Assembly (NCBI GenBank): GCA_949425635.1
Contig: CASPWD010000008.1
Coordinates: 1-64,000, forward strand
Direction of reading: 5' to 3'
Length of the DNA: 64,000 nt
DNA from: an uncultured Bacilli bacterium
Lineage (GTDB): Bacteria; Bacillota_I; Bacilli_A; RF39; UBA660
Shown in pieces: positions 944-34,791 of the stretch (the stretch's first letter is position 1; the number at the start of each line of letters is the position of its first letter). The notes under the pieces were generated by a model. That model ran no database searches. It saw only the letters and a list, made by a program, of their open reading frames with translations, and was not told the origin of the DNA. The translations under genes were made by a program, and so were the position numbers.

Positions 944-2908
944 TTAATTGTTATTCAACAAAATCTCAATTTTTGAATTTCTATTTTTTCGATTTATTTT
1001 TTCTTTACTTGATATAGCATTATATGTAAAACTATATTTTTCAGTTAAAGTTTGTAAACCTGCTATATCACTTGTTGATAATGGTGGAGCTAAATAAACA
1101 TCTGCTTGTAAATTATCTATATTATATTCTATGTTAAAATCCACTTTACCAAAAATATTTAATACTTCATTTGCAATATTTTCTAATAACTTTCGATTTT
1201 CCTCTAAACTAGAACTATTTTCAATTTTTTGTGGTACTACATTTTGTTTATTATTTTCTACAATTAACTGATCTACTGTGAAATAAGTATCTATTAATCT
1301 TTCTAAAGGTCTTTTTTCTCTAGTAATACACCCTTTTTGATAACAACTAAACTTATCATATGTAACTGTATCTCTAAAAATAGGATGTCCTATTGTTGGA
1401 AAGATAATAGTTTTAAAATGCAATTGCTTTATCTCATCAGCAGTCAATAATCTTCTTGAAATTAAACTTGTTCCTTTACTACCATTATTATTAGTAAAAC
1501 TCATTGAATAATTTAATGATGTAGTCATCACCCCATGATTTCCTATGCGAACGCTAACAGCTTCTGCAGTTTCCTGTGTATTCGTTTTAAGGTACGCAAG
1601 ACCACAGTTGTCTTGAATAATTTGACTAACTTCTTTTCCATATAAATTATCAAGTTGCTGCAAACTTTGTAAATAGTAATTATAATATAAACCTCTACTT
1701 CGCCCTACACTAGTCATTGAAATTATATCATTTAATGGAGGCGTATTCCCAAATTCATCAAGTAAAAACACCAAATCATAAGGTAATTTCTTATTTTCTT
1801 GGTCATTACATAGCATAACTAATGTTTTATACATTAAAGATACAATAATGGAAACAAGAGAATAATATATTTTTGACTCATCTGGAATACAACAATATAG
1901 TACAGTAGGTTTCTTTCCTAAATCATCTAATTCAAAATCTGAATCAGATGTTATGTTTTCTACATTAACATCATCATATAATGACATTCTCTCATTAAAG
2001 GTAGATGTGATAGAACGATATGTTGTATCAGATATATTTAATAATGGTAATAACTTATCCCTACTTTTCATATCATAAGTTTTTGATTCCATATACTTTT
2101 TTAATTTTTTATTATTTGTATCAGTCATAGAACTATTTTGGAATTTTTTAATAGATGTTAAAGTGATTTGTTCTCTTCGTACTTTGCCATTTACATATTC
2201 TTCAAAGAATAAAAAAATAATACCATATAATAAATCACAGGAACTATTATTCCAAAACTTTTCTTTGGCAGTATCATCATTCATAATCATAGTAGATAAA
2301 TCATTTACAAGTTGATTACTTTGAGCAAAATGAACAATAGATTTATTTTTATAATCCATAGATTTCTTATTATCAGTTTCTTCTTTACTTAATTTTAAAT
2401 ATTTATCATATAACTCATATTCTCTTAAAGCAGGTTCTAATAAATTATTGTGATTAGAAAATTCTGGATTTCTAAAATCTAAAGTCAAAACATCATAACC
2501 ATTATTTTTAAACATTTGACTAGTTGTTTGAAATATCTCTCCTTTTGGATCTGTGATAAAAACACTTTTTTTCTTTTCAGCAGTAGCAATGAAAGCACAA
2601 GATACAATCACTGATGTTACAGACTTTCCACTACCAGTACTTCCCAAATGAATCCAATGGGGTGTTTGATTATCAAACCATACTTTTTTATTATCTTTAC
2701 TATAATAGATAGGAAAACCACTCTCTTTAATGTGTGCAACATTTTCCTCACGAAAATTTTTTTTGATTTCTTGTTTAGTTGCCCATCTTGCAGAACCATG
2801 TTCATTATTATCTTTTATCTTTTGGCGAGTAAAAAGAGGTTCAACAAAATATAAGAAAATTAGTATTAAGGAAACAATTACTAAAATCATTATATATGGT
2901 AAAGGCAT
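944..2908 (-). CDS. VirD4/TraG-type type IV coupling protein
   Basis: Walker A GSTGSGKS, Walker B VFLLDEFGN, TraG-like NCGLAYLKTNTQETAEAVS region. Confidence 0.9.
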   Translation of the reverse strand: MPLPYIMILVIVSLILIFLYFVEPLFTRQKIKDNNEHGSARWATKQEIKKNFREENVAHIKESGFPIYYSKDNKKVWFDNQTPHWIHLGSTGSGKSVTSVIVSCAFIATAEKKKSVFITDPKGEIFQTTSQMFKNNGYDVLTLDFRNPEFSNHNNLLEPALREYELYDKYLKLSKEETDNKKSMDYKNKSIVHFAQSNQLVNDLSTMIMNDDTAKEKFWNNSSCDLLYGIIFLFFEEYVNGKVRREQITLTSIKKFQNSSMTDTNNKKLKKYMESKTYDMKSRDKLLPLLNISDTTYRSITSTFNERMSLYDDVNVENITSDSDFELDDLGKKPTVLYCCIPDESKIYYSLVSIIVSLMYKTLVMLCNDQENKKLPYDLVFLLDEFGNTPPLNDIISMTSVGRSRGLYYNYYLQSLQQLDNLYGKEVSQIIQDNCGLAYLKTNTQETAEAVSVRIGNHGVMTTSLNYSMSFTNNNGSKGTSLISRRLLTADEIKQLHFKTIIFPTIGHPIFRDTVTYDKFSCYQKGCITREKRPLERLIDTYFTVDQLIVENNKQNVVPQKIENSSSLEENRKLLENIANEVLNIFGKVDFNIEYNIDNLQADVYLAPPLSTSDIAGLQTLTEKYSFTYNAISSKEKINRKNRNSKIEILLNNN

Positions 2909-4776: not shown

Positions 4777-6135
4777 CTATTTTTCACTTGAATAATTAAA
4801 TAATTTACTAAATTCTTGCGATGCTTTTTCCATCTCATAATTGATATTTTTAATTGCTTTTTCCATTCTATATTTACTAGGAAATTTTAACATACTATTA
4901 TTACCTTTAAAATAATTGTCTAGTACTTGCTTTCTTCTTTCTTTATCAATTCTATTTTCTTTTTTAGAATTTTGATAAGCAATTTCTTGGATTAAATCTT
5001 CTATAGTAATATGATCCAAATTATTTTTATTTTTTACAATAGATGAAATATGATTGTATTTATATAAAGCATGGTTAACAATAGAGTTCAAAATATAATT
5101 ATCAATATATTCTTCCTTTTTATTAACAATACTATTATTTTTGATATTACTTTCAATATTATTTTCATTATCAAGTTTTTCAAAATATTTATTTAGTTTA
5201 TCTAAATCTTCTTTTATTTCTTTTCTACAATCACATAAAAGAGATGTATCATCATTTAAAAGATATTTCTTTATTTCTTTAGTTAGTGATTTAATTTCTT
5301 TTCCTAATTCATTATTCTTTATAGAGTTATATTTGATTTTATTAGAACTTTGATTATTGATACTACGATATTCTTTTACAAGTTCTCCTAATTTCATAAT
5401 CTTTTCCTCTATAAATATTTCTTCTACATTTTTAAGAATGAAATTCTTTTCACTAGGATTAAAATAAGATTTTAAATAATCAATATCTTCATTTGTTTTC
5501 TTTAATAATGGTGTATAATATTTTTCCCTTTCAATAGAAAGTTCTATAAGTCTTTTCAAATACCTTTGTTCATCTATTGTAATTTTCCCTTTTCTTCGAT
5601 AATTAACCTTTTTATCACAATAAAGATAATTGGGCTTCTTTTCTATAAAGGAGATATGTATATGAGGATGTTTTTTATTTGTATGAATGGAAAATACATA
5701 ACTCATATTTTTAATATCTTTAAAACCACAATATTTCAAAAATTGAGGCATTATTTCTTTTGCCATCTTTTGTTCTAAATCATGGATAGAAATATTTTCA
5801 GTAAGGTATTCTGGTTTAAAACTAATAATACCTTTCCATAAATTAGATTTTTCAATATACTTTTTATAATCTTCTTTAACTCTTTTTATATCCTGCTTTG
5901 TTGCATATTTTCCATTTTCTAAAACAAGGTTAACATTTTCTCCTCTAGTATGTCCCATGTAGTATTCAAACATTCCAACTACTTTCTTTTTAGCATTAGA
6001 AAAATAATCAATCATATCATCAACATCTTTTAACCTATCTTCTTTATAATTTAAAGAATTATTTTTGTTATCAATACAATTAAGTGCCAAACAATATTTA
6101 CTTTTAAAAATAACATTAGGACTTTTTTTATTCAT
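4777..6135 (-). CDS. MOB_P/MobL-like conjugative relaxase
   Basis: Histidine motif HTNKKHPHIHISFIEKKPN; downstream of RHH proteins. Confidence 0.8.
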   Translation of the reverse strand: MNKKSPNVIFKSKYCLALNCIDNKNNSLNYKEDRLKDVDDMIDYFSNAKKKVVGMFEYYMGHTRGENVNLVLENGKYATKQDIKRVKEDYKKYIEKSNLWKGIISFKPEYLTENISIHDLEQKMAKEIMPQFLKYCGFKDIKNMSYVFSIHTNKKHPHIHISFIEKKPNYLYCDKKVNYRRKGKITIDEQRYLKRLIELSIEREKYYTPLLKKTNEDIDYLKSYFNPSEKNFILKNVEEIFIEEKIMKLGELVKEYRSINNQSSNKIKYNSIKNNELGKEIKSLTKEIKKYLLNDDTSLLCDCRKEIKEDLDKLNKYFEKLDNENNIESNIKNNSIVNKKEEYIDNYILNSIVNHALYKYNHISSIVKNKNNLDHITIEDLIQEIAYQNSKKENRIDKERRKQVLDNYFKGNNSMLKFPSKYRMEKAIKNINYEMEKASQEFSKLFNYSSEK

Positions 6136-7358: not shown

Positions 7359-8294
7359 CTAATTTAGGGGTTTAAATTGTGCTTCCCCATGATTAAAACT
7401 AGGTGGATTATAACCATTGTTAGGTGTTCTTGATAAAGTAAAATCTATGAATTGCATTCCATCACGCAATGTTCCATTTTCTTCTTGCACTTGATAATGT
7501 AAATGATTCCCTGTTGAATGTCCTGTTGTCCCAACTGATGCAACTTCAGTCCAATGACTTACCTTATCTCCAACTTTTACTTTTGCACTGTTTGGATAAA
7601 GATGAGCGAAAACTACATAATAAGGTTCTGCATAATCTTCATCACATTTTATGGTTATTGTATTACCAATACTATTCCCACTTTGATCGTATGGAATATT
7701 TTGGCTTTGAGTATAATTTACTTTTTCTACTGTTCCACTACAAACTGAATAGACTGGAGTTTGTGCAGGAACTGCTAAATCCCAACCATTATGGACATTA
7801 CTTTCTCCATAAATAATTCGTTGTTCATTAAAAAAACTAGTTACTCTATAGGAAGCAACATCTAATGGAAAATTAAATCTACCTGTACTTACCACCAAAT
7901 AATCTTCATTTTCTTTGATATTAGATTCAATACAAGCACCCATATTTTTTACTCGTAAATCTTCACAAACTGTACTCATTTCTTTAGCAGTTTTTGCTTC
8001 AATATTTTGATTCATGATATAAAGTGTATCAATTGTTAGACCATTATTTTCTAAATAGAAATATAATATTCTTTGCAATGGCACATAACCATTTTTTAAA
8101 TTTCTATTTACTGTTTCTACATAAGCATCTGCATAATCTGCGTTATTGCTTACCTTTTCTTTAGTTAAATTAGTTCCAAAAAAATCTAATAACATAAGAA
8201 TACAAATTAAAATAACCATAAAAAATGATATGGATAAAATGGTACTACCACCAACAATTTTTAAAAAAATATTTTTCTTTTTCTTGCTTTTCAT
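7359..8294 (-). CDS. M23 (LytM-type) peptidase, conjugation cell-wall hydrolase
   Basis: GESNVHNGWDLAVPA...TGHSTGNHLHYQVQ. Confidence 0.85.
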   Translation of the reverse strand: MKSKKKKNIFLKIVGGSTILSISFFMVILICILMLLDFFGTNLTKEKVSNNADYADAYVETVNRNLKNGYVPLQRILYFYLENNGLTIDTLYIMNQNIEAKTAKEMSTVCEDLRVKNMGACIESNIKENEDYLVVSTGRFNFPLDVASYRVTSFFNEQRIIYGESNVHNGWDLAVPAQTPVYSVCSGTVEKVNYTQSQNIPYDQSGNSIGNTITIKCDEDYAEPYYVVFAHLYPNSAKVKVGDKVSHWTEVASVGTTGHSTGNHLHYQVQEENGTLRDGMQFIDFTLSRTPNNGYNPPSFNHGEAQFKPLN

Positions 8295-8476
8295 TATTTA
8301 TACTTGTGAAAATTAGAATAAAAAAATCTATTCCCTTTTAAAAGCATTTTTAATAATATATTTCTAGGAATTAAGTCTAATAAAAAATCCATAAATGATT
8401 CGTTTGGATCTTCAAATTCTTCTTGATACATCTTTTTAAATCTATTTTTTAATTGTCTATCTGAAAGTTGTTTCAT
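8294..8476 (-). CDS. Small element hypothetical protein
   Basis: ORF between VirB4 and M23 with ATGA-like overlaps. Confidence 0.5.
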   Translation of the reverse strand: MKQLSDRQLKNRFKKMYQEEFEDPNESFMDFLLDLIPRNILLKMLLKGNRFFYSNFHKYK

Positions 8477-10989
8477 ACTTTAAGTTCCTCTCCCATAAGT
8501 TCTACTTCGATAGGCGTTGCTAAAATCTTTACTCGTATTCTCTTTTTAGGATTAACAGTTAGTAAAAATTCTCCCATTTCTGCTTGCATTAAAAATTCTT
8601 TTTGAGTATCAGTTAAAGGATTTTGATAAAACAATTTTAGGTATGTAGTTAAGTCATCTTCTTTTAACATTCCTACAAGTTGATACTGGCAATTATTAAA
8701 TATTGCGGTAGCACTTCTAACTGAATCATCATCTCCAATAAAGTCATGAATACTTTGCGTAGCAGGAACAAATGAACCATGATACTTTCTAATTCGCCTT
8801 GCGATTTGTTCAAATGTTAAGATAACTTCACTATCAGTATTTTTAAGATATAAATGAAATTCATCTACTACAACCATAATATTTTTAATTCTTTTGCTGC
8901 CTTTTTCTTTATCATTAACAATTTTATTGCTAACAATGATGTTATTAAGATATGTTAGTAAATTAACTAATTGAGTTGTAATAATTCTTTTATTTTTGCT
9001 ATATAACAAGTCCTTAACATTAAATGCAATTAAATCTGAATCAAGATTTACTGAAGTATAACCATTGAATAACATTGCATCAGTTCCTACTTTAAATCTA
9101 TCTAGTAATATTTCCAATTTATCTACTATTTTTAATTGCTCTGGATTAGTAATCATATTCCTATAATCAGGAAGAAAATCTATCAAATCACTAAAAATAG
9201 GATAATCAGTATTCTCTAATTTTTCTAAACTAGAGATTTTCGTATGTTGTGTAATGCCAAATCTTTTATATAATTTTTCAATCATATCTAGCATTACAAC
9301 TACTTCACTCTCTTTAATTTCTTCAAAAGCACACTTAATGAATGTTTCTAATGAACCTAAATGTTTTGCTAAAGGACAATCTTCAAAGTTAACCTTATCT
9401 ATTGCAGTATCTTCTTTTTCTTCTCGATCACTTGGTAAAAATCTAACTTGCAAAGGATTTATTATTCCACCACTAGAAGAATATAAATCAATATATTCTC
9501 CATGATTTTTAGTTACTAGTTTTTGATACTCGCCTTCAGCATCAAACAAAATTGCACGATTTCCACGATTTATTTCATTGATAATCATTTTCTTTAATGT
9601 AAAACTTTTACCTCCTCCTGTTGAAGCAATAATAGCTAAATTACTCGAAGGTCTAGTTTTATCTTTATGAAATAAATCAAAAATAGTTGGTAATGCAGTA
9701 TGAATATCAGTTCCTAGCATATAACCAGTAGAATCGTTAAAATGAGTAATGGTTAAAGGAAATGCTGCTGCAAGAGTTAAACTTGGAAGATAATTATGGT
9801 AATCATTAAACCCATCTTTTGTAATATCAAAAGATTGCCATCCCTCTAATTGCCTCATACGAGGTACATCTAATTTAATTTGATAAACATCTGCTATCTT
9901 CTTTAATTCCTTTATTTTATCTTCTCTTTGTCTTTTATTTCCATTTATTACAATGATTAAATCTACTTCTTTTATTTTCTCATCCCCATTTTTAATTTGA
10001 GTCATGAGTGCCTGAAAGTTTTCTCTTTCAGTATCCATTTGCGTTGCATCAGATAACTTTCTTGTGGTACTTCTTTCAGAGATTAAAAATTCATAATTAC
10101 TATCTAATCTTCTAATAAGTTCTTCAGTTGGTATTGTATCTTTTATATGAATACAACTTCTTGTATCTGGAACATTAAATAATTCTTCAAAAAATAGTTC
10201 ATCAATAAATGGTGGGATTTTTTTAATGGTTACAACTTGTACCTCTTCCTCATCTACTTTTAAATAATTCATATTTTCATTAACAAAAAAAGGAGCAACT
10301 AGTTCTACTAGATCACTCCACATGATTTGTTCTATACTTGCGTTTGTTAAGTACAAGTTAACTAAAAACTGATATATTTCTAATTTATTTGTAATTTTTT
10401 GAATATTTAATCTTGGTGTCATATTGTAGCATTGAATTTCTACCTCTTCAGAAATATGTTCAAGTGCTTTATCATTATCACTAATGATTACAAAATAATA
10501 TCTACTTGTTGTAGTTAGATGTTCTCTTTCTAAAATATCTAATCTTTCGCATCTTTCTTTTAAGAAAGTAACTTTATTTTCATCATTGATAAATTCTTCA
10601 ATGAGTTTATTATAATAGTCTTTATTCGCATTCAAATCAATCATATCATCTAATTTATAAATACGCAAATTCAAATCTCTCAATTGATATAAAAACTTTA
10701 ATTGATTAAAAAAGTTCTTCTTTTGCGTATTTGATGTTAAAGATAAATCTATTGCATCTACTGAATAAACTCTAGCGTATTCTCCAGTTTTAAGTTTAAT
10801 CATACCATCATCTGATACTGTATCTGCATTTGTGAAAGTTTGAGAATTTCTATATTTATTTTTTAACATTTTTTTAGATAAATATGGTTGCTTTTTCTTT
10901 TCTTTTTTCTTAACAAAGGAAGAAATAATTTTTTTCTCTTTTACTTTTCTTTTTTCTTCTTTACTAATTTTCTTTTTCAACGAAATCAT
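8473..10989 (-). CDS. VirB4/TraE-type T4SS ATPase
   Basis: Walker A ASTGGGKSFTLKKMI; Walker B IMVVVDEFH; ATQSIHDF. Confidence 0.9.
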   Translation of the reverse strand: MISLKKKISKEEKRKVKEKKIISSFVKKKEKKKQPYLSKKMLKNKYRNSQTFTNADTVSDDGMIKLKTGEYARVYSVDAIDLSLTSNTQKKNFFNQLKFLYQLRDLNLRIYKLDDMIDLNANKDYYNKLIEEFINDENKVTFLKERCERLDILEREHLTTTSRYYFVIISDNDKALEHISEEVEIQCYNMTPRLNIQKITNKLEIYQFLVNLYLTNASIEQIMWSDLVELVAPFFVNENMNYLKVDEEEVQVVTIKKIPPFIDELFFEELFNVPDTRSCIHIKDTIPTEELIRRLDSNYEFLISERSTTRKLSDATQMDTERENFQALMTQIKNGDEKIKEVDLIIVINGNKRQREDKIKELKKIADVYQIKLDVPRMRQLEGWQSFDITKDGFNDYHNYLPSLTLAAAFPLTITHFNDSTGYMLGTDIHTALPTIFDLFHKDKTRPSSNLAIIASTGGGKSFTLKKMIINEINRGNRAILFDAEGEYQKLVTKNHGEYIDLYSSSGGIINPLQVRFLPSDREEKEDTAIDKVNFEDCPLAKHLGSLETFIKCAFEEIKESEVVVMLDMIEKLYKRFGITQHTKISSLEKLENTDYPIFSDLIDFLPDYRNMITNPEQLKIVDKLEILLDRFKVGTDAMLFNGYTSVNLDSDLIAFNVKDLLYSKNKRIITTQLVNLLTYLNNIIVSNKIVNDKEKGSKRIKNIMVVVDEFHLYLKNTDSEVILTFEQIARRIRKYHGSFVPATQSIHDFIGDDDSVRSATAIFNNCQYQLVGMLKEDDLTTYLKLFYQNPLTDTQKEFLMQAEMGEFLLTVNPKKRIRVKILATPIEVELMGEELKV

Positions 10990-15330: not shown

Positions 15331-15972
15331 TTAATATACCTCCCTGTTCGTTAATTCTGCAATAATGACAATTTGTTTATTTGTATTATGTCTGCAAGTA
15401 ATGAGTGTTAAAGTATTTGCATTATTATTTTTACTAATGCTAACTTGTCCAGTTTTTTCCACATCGTAAATATTTGTAATTTTATAATTAAATTTTTCTC
15501 CATTATAATAAACATAAATTAAATCATTTAATTCCATTTTATTAAGATTTTTAAAATAAGAAATATTACTATATCCACTATGTCCTGCCAAAATGAAATT
15601 ACCATTAGCAACATCAGGCATATTTGAACCTTTTATAATTTCAATATTTTTATTTACATTATTACTTTTGTCATTGATTGCTACTAGTCCTCGTTTCAAG
15701 TGAATACGAGGTATTTCTAAAACTGCTATGTAATTATAAGTAGATTCTTTTTTAGGTTCTTCTTTTGTTTCTTGAACCTCATCTACAATTACATTTTTAG
15801 TATCTTCTTGTTTAATTTCAAAAAAATCTTCAATAGCATTTTCTTCTTTTATATGAGTAAAATAGTTGTTATAAAGTTTTAAACCTATAACACCTAAACC
15901 TATAAAGAGAAAAAAAGAGCCAATAATTAAATATTGACTCATATTCTTATTTTTGTTTTTTCTTTTTTCCAT
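15331..15972 (-). CDS. Sortase
   Basis: FILAGHSGYSNISYFKNLNKM...LTLITCRH catalytic His/Cys/Arg; N-terminal TM. Confidence 0.88.
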   Translation of the reverse strand: MEKRKNKNKNMSQYLIIGSFFLFIGLGVIGLKLYNNYFTHIKEENAIEDFFEIKQEDTKNVIVDEVQETKEEPKKESTYNYIAVLEIPRIHLKRGLVAINDKSNNVNKNIEIIKGSNMPDVANGNFILAGHSGYSNISYFKNLNKMELNDLIYVYYNGEKFNYKITNIYDVEKTGQVSISKNNNANTLTLITCRHNTNKQIVIIAELTNREVY

Positions 15973-18724
15973 AAATAATTAAACAAACACCACTTAAAAC
16001 TGCAAGTCCTCCTAATAGGTATGATAGATCACAACCATCAATACCTGTATTTGGAACTGAATAGTTGATAAGAGTTGATTCAATGATTGCACCATTTTCA
16101 GTTACAGTAAAATATACTTTCTCATCATTTAAAGTAAATCCCTCTACTGTTTCTAATTCTTGATAGAAGAATTTTCCATATTCACTTACAAACTCGATAT
16201 CTCCATCTGCATTTGTATAATACTTTCCTAAAAGATTATTATTTAAATCAAAAATACCAATTAAAACTCCCTCTAATGGATTACCATTCTCATCAACTTT
16301 ATGAATTTTAATTGTAGATTTAATTTTTTCATTTACCATAGTGGATTTTATAATTTCTCCATCTTCCTTAACCTCAAATTCCATAGGTTCCTCATTAAGG
16401 ATAAATCCCTCTGGTGCCTCCGATTCAAAAAGCACAAATTTTGAAACAAATAATCCCTTAATAACTATTTTTCCTGATGAATCAGTCTTACCTTTAAAAA
16501 TAAGTTCTCTTTCTTCTTCATTATCACTATTATTTGTATAAATAGTAATAGTGGTATTTGGAAGAGGATTTCCTGCTACATCAGTTTTTGTAAATTCAAA
16601 GTCTGATTTTTTTAAGTAATTTTTAAGATTTAATGTATATGTAACTGTTTTAGTATATTGATCCTCATACTTTAATTCAAAGCAATAACTTGATTCATCA
16701 ATAACATGGTTTCCCACAGTTGCCTTTTCTTTTAGACGATATTTTCCAAGATATAAATCAGTTACTTTATAGAAGCCATCTTTAGTATAAAAATCTTTAA
16801 CTAATTCATTCTTTTTGTAAATAAGAGTTCCATCTTGAGAGTATATATCTTCATCAGCATAAAGTTCATAATGTACTCCATCAAGTTTGATTTCTTCATA
16901 CTTAAATGAACCATCTCCAATAACTACTTTTTCTCCAACCTTATTTACATTTAACTCTCCTTTAACTTGCTCGTTTGCGAACTTAACTTCTAAAAGAGTG
17001 CCATATTGTTCATCTTCTATAAAATTACTATTTTCTCCTATTTCAAAAATTAAAGGTTCATCATTCCATAAGTATCCATCTATTTTTTGATTTTCTACCT
17101 CTTCTAATTGATAGCGACCACTAGATAATGGATATGGAGTAATAATAACACCATTTTTATCCATTTCAAAAGTATCAAGAGTTTGAGCAGTTGGATATGT
17201 AATTGTTTGTTTTACATATTCATTTGTATCTAAATTCTTAATTTTAAATTTTAATCCTTCACGAATAATGACTTTTTGGGAATCTTTATCAATTTTTAAA
17301 ACTTTTAATTTTGCAGTTATAAGTGCATTTGAAAGTAGTTGATAATATGGATTTTCAGTATCTTCATTCACTGTTATTTCAAAGTCATCTACCTTTTCAT
17401 GATTTAAAGTTGAATTTTTTTGATGAACTCTCCATTTCCCATATGGAAGTGTAACTTTTAATTTCCCTTTATCATTTGTCGTTCCTGTTGTATAAAGTTC
17501 TCCTGTTGAAATTAAATAAAACTCAAAGTCAACATTTTTTTCTCCTGTTAAAATACCAGTTTGTCCATTAGCAAAAACTTTATATAATTCAACATCAACT
17601 TCAATGACATCTTCAAAAACTTTTAATATTGGATATAAATTATCTTTTGTGAGCTCGAACCAGTGCATAGACTCATCAAGTTGATAGCCCTTTCCACTAA
17701 TTTCTTCTCGAAGATAAAAGCGACCTAAACTTGGTAAGTAATCACTTGTACCTGTATTATTCTCTCCAATTGTTACTTGACCAACTCTAACATCTTGTTC
17801 ATTATATACCCCATAGACTGCACCTGTCAACTTGGCGTCTCCCAAAGGTTTATAACTTAATGTTTTACTATCTAGTTTTTCTGCAGTAATTTTACCACCT
17901 AAAATATTTATGTTTATATTTGTATCTATTGGATCATAACTGCCTACTTGAACAATGTTTTGAGTGTTTGGTTTTACATATACTATTGCAGAATGTGAAT
18001 ATTTCACATCTCGTTTTGTTAAAGAAATATTAGTATTACCTACTGCATTAGCAGTTAAATATAAATCATTACCATTTTTACTTGAAGAAATAAAAGAATT
18101 AGATGATACCTCATATTTTGATAATACACCACTTCTATCAGTCAATTTTAATGTTTGACCAATTACTGTTTCAAAATTACTTGCTCCAAAGTCTGGTGTT
18201 GCATAATGTTTACTTAATAATGCCTCCATCTCTGCCATTTCACTTGTATATTTACTAATTCGATTTCCATTTAATGAATCAGTAAAATAAATATCATAAC
18301 CACTTGGAACTGTTTGCCAAATCATGAATTGTGTTACTGAATACCATTTTAAATCACTATGATTTACTTCTGCATCACTGTACCCATATCCATAATATGC
18401 TAATAACTGTATTCTTCGCCATTGTGATTGTGTCATGTTTGCTACATATGCTTGGTCATAATCTTGACCTGTATAAATTTGATTGCTATCAAGTGGAGTA
18501 CCTGGTTCAATACAGTAAACAAATTGATTATCACTTTTTCTTGTAATCATTGTTAATTGTTGATACTTGGTATTTCCACCTTTTGTTTTATTTACCCATG
18601 TACTAGGAATCCACATATATTTATCATCAAATGATTCTTGATATGTTTGAGCATTTACATTGATACTTGGAAATAATGCTAATAGTCCAAATATTGCTAA
18701 TAAAAATTTTAATTTTTTCTTCAT
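15947..18724 (-). CDS. LPXTG-like surface adhesin with TQXA/thioester-type N-domain and CnaB/SpaA-type repeats
   Basis: Signal peptide; FVYCIEPGTPL; repeated E-x-xAPEGF/Y-type CnaB segments; C-terminal VPNTGIDG + TM + KKKKQK. Confidence 0.85.
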   Translation of the reverse strand: MKKKLKFLLAIFGLLALFPSINVNAQTYQESFDDKYMWIPSTWVNKTKGGNTKYQQLTMITRKSDNQFVYCIEPGTPLDSNQIYTGQDYDQAYVANMTQSQWRRIQLLAYYGYGYSDAEVNHSDLKWYSVTQFMIWQTVPSGYDIYFTDSLNGNRISKYTSEMAEMEALLSKHYATPDFGASNFETVIGQTLKLTDRSGVLSKYEVSSNSFISSSKNGNDLYLTANAVGNTNISLTKRDVKYSHSAIVYVKPNTQNIVQVGSYDPIDTNININILGGKITAEKLDSKTLSYKPLGDAKLTGAVYGVYNEQDVRVGQVTIGENNTGTSDYLPSLGRFYLREEISGKGYQLDESMHWFELTKDNLYPILKVFEDVIEVDVELYKVFANGQTGILTGEKNVDFEFYLISTGELYTTGTTNDKGKLKVTLPYGKWRVHQKNSTLNHEKVDDFEITVNEDTENPYYQLLSNALITAKLKVLKIDKDSQKVIIREGLKFKIKNLDTNEYVKQTITYPTAQTLDTFEMDKNGVIITPYPLSSGRYQLEEVENQKIDGYLWNDEPLIFEIGENSNFIEDEQYGTLLEVKFANEQVKGELNVNKVGEKVVIGDGSFKYEEIKLDGVHYELYADEDIYSQDGTLIYKKNELVKDFYTKDGFYKVTDLYLGKYRLKEKATVGNHVIDESSYCFELKYEDQYTKTVTYTLNLKNYLKKSDFEFTKTDVAGNPLPNTTITIYTNNSDNEEERELIFKGKTDSSGKIVIKGLFVSKFVLFESEAPEGFILNEEPMEFEVKEDGEIIKSTMVNEKIKSTIKIHKVDENGNPLEGVLIGIFDLNNNLLGKYYTNADGDIEFVSEYGKFFYQELETVEGFTLNDEKVYFTVTENGAIIESTLINYSVPNTGIDGCDLSYLLGGLAVLSGVCLIIYGKKKKQK

Positions 18725-20297: not shown

Positions 20298-20762
20298 CTA
20301 TGCAACAGCCACAAAAGTTCTTTCCAAAGTTTCATCAACAGTTTCTGACAAAAGATTAAATTTCAAAGCAACCTTAACATAGCAACTCTTTTTAATTACA
20401 AAATAAGTTTTGTATGTTTTTCTAACTCGATCACAAAGTTCTTTATCAGTTTCTCTATCTTCAATACTATATTGAAATACCTTTAATTCATCATCAGTAA
20501 AGGTAGTTTTAAGATTATCTATTTTTCTTTCAAACTCTTTTAAATACTTGACATAAGATTCTCTTTTTAAAACCGATTTCAATTCTTCACTTGAATTATT
20601 GAATTTGCTTTTACTATTATTTATAGTACTTGTACCTTCTATCATATGTTCTTTAACCAAACTACATATGAAATTATAATCATCAAATAATTCAAAAACT
20701 GCTTTACTTAAAACTTTCATATCAAAGTTATCTAGATACTTCTTTGAAATAAGTGCTTTCAT
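20298..20762 (-). CDS. ArpU/MG284-like small regulatory protein
   Basis: FTDDELKVFQYSIEDRETDKELCDRVRKTYKTYFVIKKSCYVKVALKFNL; similar C-terminal layout to the 19609 gene. Confidence 0.4.
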   Translation of the reverse strand: MKALISKKYLDNFDMKVLSKAVFELFDDYNFICSLVKEHMIEGTSTINNSKSKFNNSSEELKSVLKRESYVKYLKEFERKIDNLKTTFTDDELKVFQYSIEDRETDKELCDRVRKTYKTYFVIKKSCYVKVALKFNLLSETVDETLERTFVAVA

Positions 20763-20785: not shown

Positions 20786-20823
20786 AAAAAAGAGAAAACA
20801 CTATGTTCTAGTAATTTTCTCTT
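20786..20823 (-). terminator. Leader intrinsic terminator (putative attenuator) upstream of 20762
   Basis: AAGAGAAAA-N16-TTTTCTCTT followed by T-run on minus strand. Confidence 0.65.
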
Positions 20824-20949
20824 GATGTTGAAAGATATAAATTTGAAAGCATTACCAGAACCCCAAAACTGCTAATTACTACATAATTTATATTAAAAGA
20901 TAATATAAATAATTGTAGTATATAATACAACTTTTCCAAAAAATGTCAA

Positions 20950-20982
20950 GCATTTTTGCATATGAGATTGCATTTTTGCATA
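20950..20982. promoter_or_regulatory. Paired operator-like motif GCATTTTTGCATA (20950-20962, 20970-20982)
   Basis: Two exact 13-bp copies spaced 20 bp; same motif family at 23871 and 24851-24881. Confidence 0.6.
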
Positions 20983-20993
20983 CACAAAGGTAA

Positions 20994-21026
20994 AAAAATA
21001 AGACTTCATTTGATGAAAAGTCCTAT
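20994..21026 (-). terminator. Terminator after the MazG-NUDIX gene
   Basis: AGGACTTTTCATCAAATGAAGTCTTATTTTTTTA on minus strand. Confidence 0.6.
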
Positions 21027-21123
21027 TAATAACATTTTAACATGGTATTTTTGGAATGACAACAACCAAAATATAGTCATATTTATAGGTAAAAATATTG
21101 GAATATTTCTTCCAGTATTAGTA

Positions 21124-22668
21124 TTAGAATAATCTACTGAAAAAGCTAACTTTACCCATATTCAAAAATTTATCTTCATAGCATTTATTGATTATATCTT
21201 GATTTGTATTATTTTCGACCAATTCACATATCTCATTAAAATATTTGCTTGTTCCCCTTTTACTGCTAAATTCTTTTTTTAACAATTGTGGAATTGGTTT
21301 ATGATTGATAATCGCTAATAAACTTACAATATAATTATCAGTATTTCTATCAGTATTAACTAATTGTACTGAATATTTAATATTATCTTTCTTATAATCT
21401 TTTGAATTACATACTTTACCCTCATCAAAATAAAAATCTTCTGGTTTTCTTTTCTTCTGATGATTTGTTGTACGATAAAGCTTCCTAATTTTCCTTTGCA
21501 TAATCCCTTTACCCCTTTTTAAATTTAATTTTGTTAGTAATGATATATATAATCCATTTTTTATATATGCTTGATCTAAATCATTGATACTAATTACTAT
21601 ATCATTTTCTTCTGAATCTTTTCCTTTTATATTCTTTACCTTATAAATTAATAATTTAATTAAATCACTTATATCTAATTCTACGAATGAGATGACCTCA
21701 GATGTATCAAAATTAGTAAAATCATTTACTTGAATATTTAAATCTAAACTATAATAATATTGAAATTCTTTGATTTTATAATCTTTTGAAACAATTTTAT
21801 CGCATTTTCTCTTTTCTAAAAATATCAAATCTTCATAATCTACACTAAAACCTGTTTCTTCCTTTATTTCTCTAATCCCATTTTGCAATGTTTCTCCAGA
21901 AATAAGATGTCCCCCTGCAGTAATTTCTAAAAGTGGTTTCTTATTTATTTTATTATGGTTTGGATTTTTTAATTGCATAAATACTTTATGACTTTTACTA
22001 TTATAAATTAAGCAGCCAAATACCTTATGCCAATAACCTAATTTGTGAGCTTTATCTTTTTCACAATATCCAAGTAAATTTTCATCTTTATCATAAATGT
22101 CTATATATTCATTTACTTTGTTATTCCCTTTTCTAAATCTATCTAAAAAGCCATTAGCATCTTTTAACATATCTTCAAACTCTTTAACCATATTTAATTT
22201 ATAGTCTTTAGAAATATTATAAGTGATAATAAACAATTTAAACAAACGATCCTTCACAAAATCATAACTAGAATCAAAGCCATCTCTACTCTTTTTAAAG
22301 CGACACTCGTTAATTTCCATAACTGCTTCAGTTAGTTGTCCCAGTAAAATTGTAATACCATTTATATTATCATATTTAAAATCCTTATAATCTTTTATAT
22401 CATACATATTGATATTCATTATTTTTGCTAAATTGATAAGTTGTAATAATACATCAGATAACTCATCTCCTAAATTATCAATTTTTCTTTTAGATTCATT
22501 TATATCTTCATTAGCAAATAAAACATTGTAAACATGACCTAATTGAACATATAACTCATTAAGATAATCTCTAGGATTCCACTCTTTATTTTTGGTAATA
22601 TCAAAATCACTTACTAATTTTAAAGCAGATTTATAATGTGTATCTAAAAATTTAATAATATCTTTCAT
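21124..22668 (-). CDS. MazG-like + NUDIX hydrolase fusion with extra C-terminal domain
   Basis: LGDELSDVLLQLINLAKI (MazG-like) and AGGHLISGETLQNGIREIKEETGF (Nudix-like box). Confidence 0.75.
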   Translation of the reverse strand: MKDIIKFLDTHYKSALKLVSDFDITKNKEWNPRDYLNELYVQLGHVYNVLFANEDINESKRKIDNLGDELSDVLLQLINLAKIMNINMYDIKDYKDFKYDNINGITILLGQLTEAVMEINECRFKKSRDGFDSSYDFVKDRLFKLFIITYNISKDYKLNMVKEFEDMLKDANGFLDRFRKGNNKVNEYIDIYDKDENLLGYCEKDKAHKLGYWHKVFGCLIYNSKSHKVFMQLKNPNHNKINKKPLLEITAGGHLISGETLQNGIREIKEETGFSVDYEDLIFLEKRKCDKIVSKDYKIKEFQYYYSLDLNIQVNDFTNFDTSEVISFVELDISDLIKLLIYKVKNIKGKDSEENDIVISINDLDQAYIKNGLYISLLTKLNLKRGKGIMQRKIRKLYRTTNHQKKRKPEDFYFDEGKVCNSKDYKKDNIKYSVQLVNTDRNTDNYIVSLLAIINHKPIPQLLKKEFSSKRGTSKYFNEICELVENNTNQDIINKCYEDKFLNMGKVSFFSRLF

Positions 22669-23798
22669 TATCTTACACCTACTTTCAATACTAAAGGTCT
22701 AGCACCATTTAAAGTTGAATTATAAGTATTGGGAACAATATTATTTGTTGAAATATATACCTTTACTCCTAATTTATAAGATAAATAAGAAGCATCACTT
22801 ATTTTTAAATCTATATTTTTAAGTTCTAAACTTCCATATTCATCAAAAATAAAGCTTACATTTGAAACATCAAAATCTAATTTTTCCAATAAGTTTTTAC
22901 ATTGATTTATAGTTTTTTGTTGATTTAATAATTTATGTGCCATCATGCAACGCTTTCTTTGTTCCTCATTACAATGATTATAATTCTTACATTCAAATGT
23001 CCCATAGTATTGTGAAGATGGTCTTTTCAATTTTGCATTTAATCCACAAGTATTTGTTTGAAAAGTTTGTTGCTTATGCGAATATGAGTTATTAAAATAA
23101 TTCCAAGCACTTTCAGGCCAAACACTATTTGCTTTTAGTGCTTGTTCTTTATTTTCTTTAATTTCTTCCCAACATCCTATTTTATCAATAAAAGTTTCAA
23201 TTAAAGCAAGACCAGTAGTTACTGATACATCAGTATATTGATTTACAAAATCCAGTATTTCCTGAATCTTTTTAGGATCAGAATTTTGTGGTAAAAATGG
23301 TCTAAAATAGTGAATTGCATCTATATTATTTTTAATTAATATTCTAAAATTTTCTTTTAAAATCTCTTCTGATATTGCAGGTTCTATTTCCTTTCCTAGT
23401 CCTGAATAACTTATATAGAAAACTATATTTTGTCCTTTTGATTTCATTTGTTTTACTAAATCAATAACATTATCTGTTATTCTACATTTTGTAATAATCA
23501 CTAAATCATTTTTTATATTAAGTCTGCTAATCTCTCTCAACAATTCCATTAAATAACTAATAGTGTTTTCATTTAAAAAAGCATCAGTATTGGGTAATAG
23601 ACAAACTGGAATATCTAAATCATAATACTTATAATCCAATAATTGCTTTACTGCTTCTTTTGGTGTTGCCAAAATCTTTGGTTCATGACAATTATCATTT
23701 GTTGCTTGTAATAAACAATATTTACAATTATTAGTACATCCTACAATAGAATTAATTGCTAACCAACTTGAATGCATTTCAATTACTTGCATATACAC
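22668..23798 (-). CDS. Radical SAM protein
   Basis: CTNNCKYC (CxxxCxxC) near N-terminus; additional C-terminal cysteines CGLNAKLKRPSSQYYGTFECKNYNHCNEEQRKRC. Confidence 0.85.
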   Translation of the reverse strand: MYMQVIEMHSSWLAINSIVGCTNNCKYCLLQATNDNCHEPKILATPKEAVKQLLDYKYYDLDIPVCLLPNTDAFLNENTISYLMELLREISRLNIKNDLVIITKCRITDNVIDLVKQMKSKGQNIVFYISYSGLGKEIEPAISEEILKENFRILIKNNIDAIHYFRPFLPQNSDPKKIQEILDFVNQYTDVSVTTGLALIETFIDKIGCWEEIKENKEQALKANSVWPESAWNYFNNSYSHKQQTFQTNTCGLNAKLKRPSSQYYGTFECKNYNHCNEEQRKRCMMAHKLLNQQKTINQCKNLLEKLDFDVSNVSFIFDEYGSLELKNIDLKISDASYLSYKLGVKVYISTNNIVPNTYNSTLNGARPLVLKVGVR

Positions 23799-23870
23799 AC
23801 CTCGCTTTTAATGGAGTATATAATAGCACAAAGAAAACAATAAATCGTTATGAAATTTTACAAATGAATT

Positions 23871-23882
23871 TGCAAAAATGCA
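23871..23882. promoter_or_regulatory. Operator-like motif TGCAAAAATGCA upstream of the radical SAM gene
   Basis: Matches the motif seen upstream of the LysR-type gene and at 20950-20982. Confidence 0.55.
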
Positions 23883-23891
23883 AACAAAAAA

Positions 23892-23906
23892 GGTGTTATT
23901 AAACAC
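23892..23906 (-). terminator. Terminator of LysR-type gene
   Basis: GGTGTT-N3-AACACC + T-run on minus strand. Confidence 0.6.
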
Positions 23907-23916
23907 CCTATATAAA

Positions 23917-24789
23917 TTATTTAAAAAGATTCAAAAATTCTTTAGCAGATGGAGATAAATTTCCATTGATATATGAAATAGAAATCTCTTTATCTAATTC
24001 TATATCCAAATAATTTAATTCAGAATCTTTTATATATTTTTTTGGTAATAATGCATACCCTAAACCTGATATAGCATAGTCATAAGCAGTATCATAATTT
24101 GAAACTTCTAAAGACAAGTTTTTCTTAATTTTATTTTCACTTAATAATTGTTCAAATTTCATTCGATCCTGTCTATCACTAATCGGTAATATTAAAGGAA
24201 GATTATTCAATTGTTCAATAGTATTTAATTCAGTTTCAAAGTGATTAGAAGAGTATGCTATACAATATTTTTCAATACTTATACTTTTAGATTTTATATC
24301 ACTACTTGATTTTAAATCCCAATATTTTTCATCGATAACAAAGTCAATATAATATTTAGATAGCTTATCAAATAAATCTTTTGTTTCTCCTTCTACTATC
24401 TTTATGATAACATCTGGATATTTACTTTTAAATTTTTTTACTTTTTCAGTTAGTATATCTTTCTCAATATCTTTTAAAACTCCAATTGATAATTTTCCAG
24501 TATTTAAAGATTTACCTTGAATATAATTTTTTTCAGTAAAAAGTATAGTATTATATGCTTTTTCATAACCATCAAAAAGAGTTTTTCCATCTTCAGTTAA
24601 TTCAATAATATTTTTAGAATTTCTTTTTACTAACTTTGTTTCCATAGTATCTTCTAATTGCTTTATGTGTCTTGATACATTGGTATAATCAATATTTAAT
24701 TTACTTGCTGCTTCTTTATAATCTTTTGATTGTCCTACTACTACAAAAGTTCGTATGTAGTCTAAATTCATGGACTGCGTTTTTAACAT
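23917..24789 (-). CDS. LysR-family transcriptional regulator
   Basis: LDYIRTFVVVGQSKDYKEAASKLNIDYTNVSRHIKQLEDTMETKLVKR HTH; substrate-binding domain. Confidence 0.92.
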   Translation of the reverse strand: MLKTQSMNLDYIRTFVVVGQSKDYKEAASKLNIDYTNVSRHIKQLEDTMETKLVKRNSKNIIELTEDGKTLFDGYEKAYNTILFTEKNYIQGKSLNTGKLSIGVLKDIEKDILTEKVKKFKSKYPDVIIKIVEGETKDLFDKLSKYYIDFVIDEKYWDLKSSSDIKSKSISIEKYCIAYSSNHFETELNTIEQLNNLPLILPISDRQDRMKFEQLLSENKIKKNLSLEVSNYDTAYDYAISGLGYALLPKKYIKDSELNYLDIELDKEISISYINGNLSPSAKEFLNLFK

Positions 24790-24850
24790 ACTGCTTCCCC
24801 CTAATTGCCCTATATACTATAACAATTAAAGGAAAAAGTCAACGAAAATA

Positions 24851-24881
24851 TGCAAAATTGCAATAAAAATGCAAAATTGCA
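24851..24881. promoter_or_regulatory. Paired palindromes TGCAAAATTGCA (24851-24862, 24870-24881) upstream of the LysR-type gene
   Basis: Two exact copies, 19-bp spacing, about 60 bp upstream of start. Confidence 0.65.
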
Positions 24882-32116: not shown

Positions 32117-33412
32117 TTATTTTTGTTTTGGTCTAATAACTTCTAAACCACCCATATAAGGTTGTAAAACCTTTGGAATTATTATGCTGCCATCACTTTG
32201 GTAGCCAGACTCGATTATTGCGATAAGTGAGCGTGGGCTTGCAATCACTGTGTTGTTTAGTGTTGAAAGGAATTGATTACCATTTTCAGTTTTCATTCTT
32301 ATACCTAATCTTCTTGCTTGAGCATCTCCTAAAGTTGAACAAGAACCAACTTCAAAATATTTTTGTTGTCTTGGACTCCATGCTTCAACATCACAAGATT
32401 TAACTTTTAAATCTGCTAAATCTCCACTACAACACTCTAATGTTCTTACTGAAACATCTAAACTTCTAAAGAATTCTACTGTATAACTCCACATTTTGTT
32501 ATACCATTCCATAGCATCTTCTGGTTTACAAAGTACTACCATTTCTTGTTTTTCAAATTGATGAACTCTATATAATCCTCTTTCTTCAAGACCATGAGAA
32601 CCTACTTCTTTTCTAAAACATGGAGAATAACTTGTCATAGCAATTGGTAGTTCTTTTTCATCTATAATTTGTCCTTTAAATTTACCTATCATACTATGTT
32701 CACTTGTACCAATTAAATATAAATCTTCTCCCTCGATTTTATACATCATAGCATCCATTTCTGCAAATGACATAACACCTGTTACAACATCACTACGAAT
32801 CATAAATGGTGGTATTGCATATGTAAATCCTTTACTTATCATGAAATCTCTTGCATATGCAATTGTTGCTTCATGTAATCGTGCAATATCTCCTACTAAA
32901 TAATAAAAACCATTTCCACTTGTTCTTCCTGCACTGTCTTTATCAAGACCACCTAATGCTTCACAAATATCTGCATGATATGGTATTTCATAATCTCTTA
33001 CAAATGGTTCTCCAAATTTTTCTATTTCTACATTTTCACTATCATCTTTACCAATTGGCACACTATCATCAATAATATTTGGAATTACCATCATTTTACT
33101 TTTTAAGTTTTCAGATAATTCACTTTCTTCTTTTTCTATACTTTCTAATTGATTGTTAATTTCTACTACCCTTTGCTTTTTAGCATTTGCTTCATCAACT
33201 TTCTTATCTCTAAATAAAGCTCCTATTTCATCACTTGTTGCATTTCTTTCTTGTCTTAAACTATCCCCTGTTGATTTTAACTCTCTAATTTTTTGATCCA
33301 ATTCAATTACCTCATCTACTAAAGGTAATTTCTCATCTTGAAATTTCTTCTTTATATTTTCCTTTACTTTATCCTTATTTTCTCGTACGAATTTTATATC
33401 TAACATTTCCAA
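32117..33412 (-). CDS. serS: Seryl-tRNA synthetase, full length (second, element-side copy)
   Basis: SerRS coiled-coil arm; TSEHSMIGKF, SPCFRKEVGSHG (motif 2), STLNNTVIASPRSLIAIIESGYQSDGSIIIPKVLQPYMGG (motif 3 and C-terminus). Confidence 0.92.
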   Translation of the reverse strand: MEMLDIKFVRENKDKVKENIKKKFQDEKLPLVDEVIELDQKIRELKSTGDSLRQERNATSDEIGALFRDKKVDEANAKKQRVVEINNQLESIEKEESELSENLKSKMMVIPNIIDDSVPIGKDDSENVEIEKFGEPFVRDYEIPYHADICEALGGLDKDSAGRTSGNGFYYLVGDIARLHEATIAYARDFMISKGFTYAIPPFMIRSDVVTGVMSFAEMDAMMYKIEGEDLYLIGTSEHSMIGKFKGQIIDEKELPIAMTSYSPCFRKEVGSHGLEERGLYRVHQFEKQEMVVLCKPEDAMEWYNKMWSYTVEFFRSLDVSVRTLECCSGDLADLKVKSCDVEAWSPRQQKYFEVGSCSTLGDAQARRLGIRMKTENGNQFLSTLNNTVIASPRSLIAIIESGYQSDGSIIIPKVLQPYMGGLEVIRPKQK

Positions 33413-33552: not shown

Positions 33553-34791
33553 TTAAGCACTTATGAGAGTCGATTTTGCTTGAAAATTCAAGGATTTCAA
33601 CCAATTTCCTACTTGAGTGCATATGGCTACTACAGGATTATTTAGTGTATGAACATAATATGTTCCGTTTTCTCCTTTAGTACGTATACCTAAACGTCTT
33701 GCTTGAGCGTCACCTAAGTTAGAGCAACTAGCTACTTCAAAGTATTTTTGTTGACGAGGACTCCATGCTTCGATATCACAAGATTTAACTTTAAGATCAG
33801 CCAAGTCTCCACTACAGCATTCTAATTGTCTTACTGGAATGTCCCAACTTCTAAATAAATCTACTGTTAATTTCCACATTTTATTGTACCAATCCATAGA
33901 TTCTTCTGGTTCACAAACAACAATCATCTCTTGCTTTTCAAATTGATGAACTCTATATAGTCCTCTTTCTTCTAGACCATGAGATCCACCTTCTTTTCTA
34001 AAACATGGAGAATATGATGTCATATTAATTGGTAAAGTATCTTGTTTAATTATTTGATCTTTAAATTTACCAATCATACTATGTTCAGAAGTACCAATTA
34101 AGTATAAATCTTCTCCTTCTATTTTATACATCATTGCTTCCATTTCTGGGAATGACATAACACCTGTAACAACATCACTATGAATCATAAATGGTGGAAT
34201 TGCATAAGTGAAGCCGTGGTCAATCATATAGTCTCTTGCACATGCTAGCATTGCTTCATGTAAACGAGCCACATCACCAAGTAAATAGTAGAATCCTTCT
34301 CCACTAGTACGTCCTGCTGCTTCTTTATCTAAGCCATTAAAAGATGCTACGATATCAGCATGATATGGGATTTCGTATTCAGGAACTACTGGTTCTCCAA
34401 ATCTTTCTACTTCAACGTTTTCAGAATCATCTTTCCCTACTGGAACAGATGCGTCCATAATATTTGGGATTACCATCATACGACTCTTGATTTCTTTATC
34501 TAATTCCACTTTCGTATTTTCTAGTTCAGTTATTTTAGTTGCCATAGTAGCTATTTCTTCTTTAATAGCGTTTGCTTCATCGATTTTTTTATCTTTCATT
34601 AACATACCGATTTCAGCACTCTTTTTATTTTTATCCGCTTTTAAATCGTCTGCTGCTTTTTGAGCTTCTCTAACTTTAATGTCCATTTCATAAACTTCAT
34701 CTACTAATGGAAGTTTTTCGTCTTGGAATTTTTTCTTAATATTTTCTTTTACTAACTCTCTATTTTCTCTTATTAATTTAATATCTATCAT
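33553..34791 (-). pseudogene. serS: Seryl-tRNA synthetase truncated before motif 3; ends with 23 unrelated residues (33553-33624)
   Basis: Homologous to the 32117 copy until HTLNNPVVA, then ICTQVGNWLKSLNFQAKSTLISA. Confidence 0.85.

Follow-up and report, generated by a model that had tools for sequence, protein, structure and literature searches.

A LysR-type regulator, a radical SAM enzyme and a MazG–NUDIX protein sharing an operator motif: a candidate switch of mobile elements

The three-gene module and its operator

The stretch of DNA analysed here, referred to as the window, comprises the first 64,000 nucleotides of contig CASPWD010000008.1 (assembly GCA_949425635.1) from an uncultured Bacilli bacterium of the RF39 lineage. 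It contains a module of three genes, all on the minus strand in the list of open reading frames (ORFs), which encode a LysR-type regulator, a radical SAM (rSAM) enzyme and a fusion of a MazG-like with a NUDIX domain (Table 1). The module is located within an integrative conjugative element (ICE), of which the relaxase, the coupling protein and the VirB4-like ATPase are encoded in the window. Both the ORFs and the Pfam matches agree with the first-pass annotation, made from the sequence alone, on the composition, the position and the overlap of these genes, in which base 22668 is common to the stop codon of the rSAM gene and the start codon of the MazG–NUDIX gene (TAATG). A palindromic motif, TGCA-N4-TGCA, stands in front of lysR, in front of the rSAM gene and in front of g154, an ArpU-like gene that heads an operon of the element.

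The regulator matches Pfam LysR_substrate (2.3e-22) and HTH_1 (2.5e-13), both above the cutoff, and its orthologues in L007, L034–L037 and L039 (L denotes loci and G genomes throughout) share 38–58% identity. The rSAM enzyme reaches 29.3 bits (1.1e-6) in Pfam Radical_SAM against a cutoff of 29.5, and a chromosomal relative reaches 36.0 bits. Its CxxxCxxC motif (C21, C25 and C28) is invariant among relatives, as are C-terminal cysteines 251, 270, 276 and 284, a probable second cluster; translation probably starts at the internal ATG at 23792. The best profile matches are KamA-like. A match to an AI-designed TIM barrel in PDB was disregarded, membership of radical SAM mobile pair B (TIGR04470) was ruled out by 17.4 bits against a cutoff of 410, and a prokaryotic viperin (pVip) was ruled out, PADLOC giving no match for this enzyme.

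The fusion protein has three parts. The MazG-like domain of the window is a weak match on the single sequence (Pfam MazG 0.0035, 18–19.6 bits against a cutoff of 22), and among 18 members of the family Pfam MazG was found in 13 and MazG-like in 10; its best PDB matches are nucleotide pyrophosphatases, with E about 0.013. The NUDIX domain matches Pfam NUDIX at 1.1e-6, and the G, E, RE and EE of its box are invariant in nine relatives, with a spacing one residue below the consensus GX5E...REUXEE. The third part, a C-terminal domain, is an addition to the first-pass annotation, as are the degenerate second site at the rSAM promoter and the finding that an ArpU-like regulator is encoded at the head of what had been called the next operon. 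AlphaFold models built on two to three sequences had low pLDDT (predicted local distance difference test) values of 49.6 and 35.8, the alignments being shallow.

The five copies of the motif noticed at first are real, four being exact and the one at 20949 having one mismatch. A search of the window allowing one mismatch gave 6 matches against a shuffle mean of 1.98 (sd 1.5), the sixth being an unrelated one-mismatch match at 23026 inside the rSAM gene. The annotation had placed the motif only at promoters of the module, and it is indeed concentrated there rather than equally frequent across the genome: in the host assembly of 2.39 Mb, four of the five exact TGCAAAAWTGCA sites and four of the eight distinct TGCAWWWWTGCA sites lie at the module, and paired sites 6–10 bp apart occur solely at the lysR and g154 promoters, where near-consensus -35 and -10 boxes follow just below each pair. 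The rSAM gene has its own promoter, as the terminator-like hairpin after lysR implies; an Rfam Histone3 match at 23887–23931 (27.3 bits against a gathering threshold of 34) is a chance match to a short hairpin. In this promoter the proximal site lies over the expected -35 box, and it is kept as TGTAAAATTGCA, 20 bp downstream of the distal site, in L007, L032, L035, L068 and L069. This placement of the operators would be that of an activator.

The transcript of g154 begins with a leader. In the window and in L007, L034 and L039 this leader contains a terminator hairpin directly before the gene and a GGGGUUUUGG element able to base-pair with the 5' arm of that hairpin; in all, four or five ICE loci have a g154 leader of this terminator/antiterminator kind. 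When the upstream part was shuffled, the observed pairing energy was reached 0, 2, 30 and 0 times per 1000, respectively; the same test gave 43 of 1000 for L070 and 269 of 1000 for L071, which comes from a genome without an rSAM match. The pairing is preserved despite differing sequences, and the leader looks like an attenuator with mutually exclusive terminator and antiterminator. No Rfam family matched the leader of the window. A reading as a leader peptide (MGFW in several loci) was dropped, as there is no ribosome site and the element pairs with the terminator arm.

Table 1. Features of the module, of the g154 operon and of the surrounding element in the window
Feature	Position	Strand	Remark
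Operator, distal site, lysR promoter	24870..24881		exact
Operator, proximal site, lysR promoter	24851..24862		exact
lysR promoter	24814..24842	-	TTGACT-17-TAGTAT, 8 bp downstream of operators
LysR-type regulator, 290 aa	23917..24789	-	HTH_1 + LysR_substrate
Terminator-like hairpin 3' of lysR	23890..23909	-	
Operator, distal site, rSAM promoter	23871..23882		exact
Operator, proximal site, rSAM promoter	23851..23862		degenerate, TGTAAAATTTCA, over expected -35
Extended -10, rSAM promoter	23820..23825	-	TGcTATTAT, without -35 consensus; presumed from reading the sequence
rSAM enzyme, 376 aa	22668..23798	-	Pfam and invariant Cys
MazG–NUDIX fusion, 514 aa	21124..22668	-	
MazG-like all-alpha domain, fusion aa 1–180	22129..22668	-	invariant E38, Q42, D68, E69, D72, Q111, E114, E118
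NUDIX domain, fusion aa ~185–345	21634..22116	-	YfcD/IDI-like; intact GGH...E...REIKEE box
C-terminal domain of fusion, ~130 aa	21169..21501	-	fold unassigned; own ORF in L034, L039
Operator, distal site, g154 promoter	20969..20980		exact
Operator, proximal site, g154 promoter	20949..20960		one mismatch; abuts -35
g154 promoter	20922..20949	-	TTGACA-16-TATTAT, 11/12 consensus
g154 leader	20786..20864	-	GGGGUUCUGGUAAU element able to pair with terminator-hairpin 5' arm; antiterminator versus terminator
g154, ArpU-like/sigma-like regulator heading element operon	20298..20762	-	weak PHROG_36 match, 0.0074; orthologues in module-bearing elements
Second ArpU-like regulator, 193 aa	19609..20190	-	PHROG_248 transcriptional activator, 9e-7; TIGR01637, 4.6e-4
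SpaA/thioester adhesin (ICE surface gene, downstream)	15947..18724	-	
Sortase (ICE surface gene, downstream)	15331..15972	-	
VirB4-like ATPase (ICE transfer gene)	8473..10989	-	
M23 peptidase (ICE transfer gene)	7359..8294	-	
Relaxase (ICE transfer gene)	4777..6135	-	
Coupling protein (ICE transfer gene)	944..2908	-	

Conservation of the module and of its wiring

Searches at the levels of order, family and genus, together with fetched regions, placed the rSAM gene at 20 loci, decayed copies not counted. A MazG-like gene or domain adjoins it in all 20 (L006 is cut by a contig end) and LysR in 17, the contigs fetched for G094, G153 and G036 having no LysR; the co-occurrence that the first-pass annotation had named as the point to check is thus present in other genomes. 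Mobile versions were found in L007/G015, G181 (two), G180, G144, G200, G802, G768 and G789. A chromosomal LysR–rSAM–MazG(–NUDIX) set occurs in six genomes of the same genus (L085:7142-13671, L086, L087, L088, L089 and L090), mostly followed by SUF iron–sulphur assembly genes, which points to a metabolic enzyme set, and with an AlkD-type repair gene and a Y-family polymerase a few genes off. These chromosomes encode MazG and NUDIX in two adjacent genes, so that the fusion in the window is a joined gene pair. The rSAM tree separates a chromosomal group (98/98) from a mobile group (89/87), and in the latter the copies of ICEs and of tail elements interleave; one ICE copy, in G181, clusters with copies of tail elements at 100/100, indicating that the module has passed from one kind of element to another.

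The operator accompanies the mobile wiring. In mobile loci TGCA-N4-TGCA palindromes occupy three fixed places, upstream of lysR, of the rSAM gene and of g154, whereas the six chromosomal loci are without them. Promoters account for 20 exact sites over 6,674 positions, and the other 195,077 positions for a single one; the 20 are not independent events, since some of the loci, such as L006 and the window, are close relatives. G789, where the module and g154 lie on separate contigs, has operators at lysR and at the rSAM gene, and its g154 still has a degenerate operator pair before TTGACT. G732 has a distant relative of g154, no rSAM gene and no operator there.

What follows g154 differs with the kind of element. 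ICE genes, SpaA adhesin among them, follow it in the window, L007, L034, L036 and L039. In L035/L075 and L069/L076 (the L069 part being L069:1-13006) it is followed by genes for tail proteins, holin, endolysin, a Gp10-like fibre and Rhs proteins, the last assigned by reading repeats and not by a profile. No ORF of a size for terminase, portal or capsid lies between g154 and the tail genes of these loci, and the elements therefore look like phage-tail-like particles, as far as genes alone can tell. An AAA/TOPRIM-type pair like HEC-01 comes directly after g154 in L068 and L069. In L037:1427-11122 a Zot-like protein and a rolling-circle Rep, as in inoviruses, are encoded downstream of LysR/rSAM/MazG and g154.

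Sampling across the class (395 genomes) and across the phylum (340 genomes) gave no rSAM match outside the window's own family, and no plasmid or phage record carried the module. Distant rSAM relatives occur on plasmids of Streptomyces and a few others and in no phages, those of Streptomyces showing about 30% identity over the full length. On the Streptomyces plasmids L002, L003 and L004 the relative has genes for a murA-like enolpyruvyl transferase and for a class II aldolase as neighbours, with a glycosyltransferase in two of them; hexapeptide-transferase genes are also near, and this neighbourhood is an uncharacterised biosynthetic cluster. Decayed tandem copies of the rSAM N-terminus alternate with Abi_2-like fragments in L041:7761-10754, and an intact Abi_2 gene adjoins the rSAM gene in L032. 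Upstream of the module in L007 (L007:169-6272) lies a cargo of an ABC ATPase, two APH-like kinases and thymidylate-kinase-like, NUDIX, HAD and GNAT proteins, together with a second radical SAM protein with a weak viperin match.

Within the window the ICE genes lie to the left of the module and housekeeping genes from about 32 kb on the right. No integrase or attachment sites were identified in the window, which begins at a contig end; L034/L077 have an ORF resembling a serine recombinase upstream of the module. Two seryl-tRNA synthetase genes (32117-33412 and 33553-34791) stand side by side next to the probable right end of the element.

A proposed switch and its alternatives

The module may be a small-molecule-operated switch of mobile elements, working in four steps. 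The rSAM enzyme, the MazG-like protein and often the NUDIX protein are, as the sequence shows, a conserved enzyme set accompanying LysR. LysR would bind the observed TGCA-N4-TGCA palindromes, usually two sites 19–21 bp apart, at its own promoter, the enzyme promoter and the g154 promoter, and the site over the missing -35 box of the rSAM promoter would imply activation. The enzymes would act on a nucleotide-type metabolite and in this way set the level of the LysR effector; as LysR would also drive the enzyme genes, a feedback loop would result. In the presence of the effector, LysR would raise expression of g154 past the terminator/antiterminator leader, and the g154 product, as an ArpU-like late-gene regulator, would turn on the operon of the element: adhesin, sortase and transfer genes in the ICE of the window, and tail/Rhs or filamentous-phage genes elsewhere.

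The predicted regulatory wiring is the firm part of this mechanism. The operator and its regulon appear close to certain, and LysR is very likely the protein that binds the palindromes; the module probably controls the expression of element genes. LysR regulators usually sit beside enzymes of their ligand pathway, and this usual logic, the co-regulation and a linkage that holds on chromosomes and mobile elements alike argue that the effector is made or removed by the enzymes of the module, which falls slightly short of an even call. The four steps taken jointly are evenly poised. The effector may be a signal that is made, a metabolite that is consumed or a product of damage. A bolder version, in which rSAM, MazG and NUDIX would make a new nucleotide-derived signal sensed by LysR, as a self-contained cassette plugged into the late-gene switches of an ICE, a phage-tail particle and a filamentous phage, is tentative and rather doubtful.

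Several observations weigh against the proposed switch. The samples are draft metagenome-assembled genomes of one bacterial family. The contigs fetched for L032, L038 and L040 carry rSAM and MazG but no LysR, and L037 has no recognisable operator at g154. NUDIX is present in most loci and is missing in L034, L037, L039 and G776 (L006 cannot be judged), and is thus not essential. The metal site of MazG is atypical, E38, E69 and D72 being invariant and Q42/H45 replacing usual acids (EExxE...ExxD), which makes its activity uncertain. The rSAM enzyme has no close characterised relative, KamA-type profiles being its sole matches and PDB giving no real one. The ArpU match of g154 is weak and that of the 193-aa neighbour clearer, the PHROG_248 match being found in the neighbour alone.

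Among the alternatives, the one that survives best, though unlikely, is a sentinel of nucleotide damage: the SplB/KamA-like rSAM, the MazG-like and the NUDIX protein would repair or clear damaged nucleotides, and LysR would sense a damage product and release the element in an SOS-like manner. House-cleaning is a classical role of the MazG and NUDIX folds, induction by stress is typical of ICEs, tail elements and phages, and in the chromosomes of the same genus a few genes separate the set from AlkD-type DNA alkylation repair and the Y-family polymerase. That set is, however, closer to the SUF genes than to the repair genes, and two other neighbourhoods point to biosynthesis instead: the relative in L040 is in a glycan cluster (pyruvyl transferase and glycosyltransferases), and the Streptomyces relatives lie by the murA-like gene, the class II aldolase and the hexapeptide transferase.

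These same associations of rSAM with NUDIX/MazG-type hydrolases and with glycan or natural-product genes would suit biosynthetic cargo, the enzymes supplying the host with a nucleoside-like antimicrobial or surface metabolite and LysR merely co-regulating them with the element; the terms rSAM and NUDIX also occur together in a paper on the tubercidin pathway (PMC6112128). On the other hand, the module has no conserved transporter or resistance gene alongside it, and the g154 operator, for which a passenger would have no need, is kept across unrelated kinds of element; this explanation is quite improbable. The first-pass description as a cargo module accordingly holds for its parts and not for plain cargo, since the element's own operon has, via g154, the same operator at its head.

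There is also a slim chance that LysR is a target alone and that the protein binding the palindrome is the ArpU-like g154 product or another regulator of the element. Since g154 accompanies the operator at almost every mobile locus, the two binders cannot be told apart completely from the sequence. However, two palindromes 19–21 bp apart at about -40 to -70, the regulator's own promoter included, correspond to the standard geometry of a LysR tetramer, and in G789 the lysR and rSAM operators are present with g154 on another contig. Least probable of all is an anti-phage cargo whose enzymes would make or destroy modified nucleotides during infection, a role suggested in the first-pass annotation and in keeping with the mobile location, the HEC-01-like pairs after g154 and the Abi_2 gene beside rSAM, but little supported, as PADLOC found no defence family for the enzymes and for LysR weak HTH matches to CARF/Csa3 models alone, the chromosomal versions adjoin SUF genes, and the operator targets genes of the element.

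For most Gram-positive ICEs, little is known of the signals by which transfer is triggered. For the switch proposed here the likely receptor, binding sites, enzyme partners and target operon are all visible, and one cassette serves three kinds of element. If the cassette does make the effector, it would represent a new class of signal for horizontal transfer; if the effector comes from damage to metabolites, element induction would have a new kind of trigger in it.

Relation to known systems

In LuxI/LuxR-type and other autoinducer-controlled conjugation, a synthase and a receptor in positive feedback drive the transfer genes. The module resembles these systems in having a synthase-like gene and a receptor gene under a proposed positive feedback, although its enzyme families are unrelated, its signal is putative, and its enzymes could destroy as well as make the effector. 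The radical SAM mobile pair (TIGR04470) combines an rSAM enzyme, a partner and a regulator on mobile elements, whereas the module has no second rSAM and contains MazG/NUDIX instead. The g154 product and its 193-aa neighbour resemble late regulators of the ArpU family (TIGR01637, PHROG_248) and head late-type operons, but both are below the curated cutoffs (for TIGR01637, with a cutoff of 43.1, the neighbour gave 20.4 bits and g154 no match), and they sit under LysR-type operators and a leader attenuator.

The closest parallels are TciR, a LysR-type activator of transfer in ICEclc (PMC4063739), and TraR, which activates transfer of Tn4371-family elements coupled to the expression of cargo (PMC11448139). 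As in the module, an element-borne LysR-type activator governs gene expression and transfer of an ICE. These systems are from Proteobacteria, however, and they have no dedicated rSAM/MazG/NUDIX partner set, no common paired operator at the regulator, enzyme and late-regulator genes, and no link to tail or filamentous elements. The first-pass annotation recognised no described system of this architecture, and no description joining rSAM, MazG, NUDIX and LysR was found in the open-access literature searched either. An element-borne LysR switch is thus already known, and the rSAM/MazG/NUDIX partner set is the new part.

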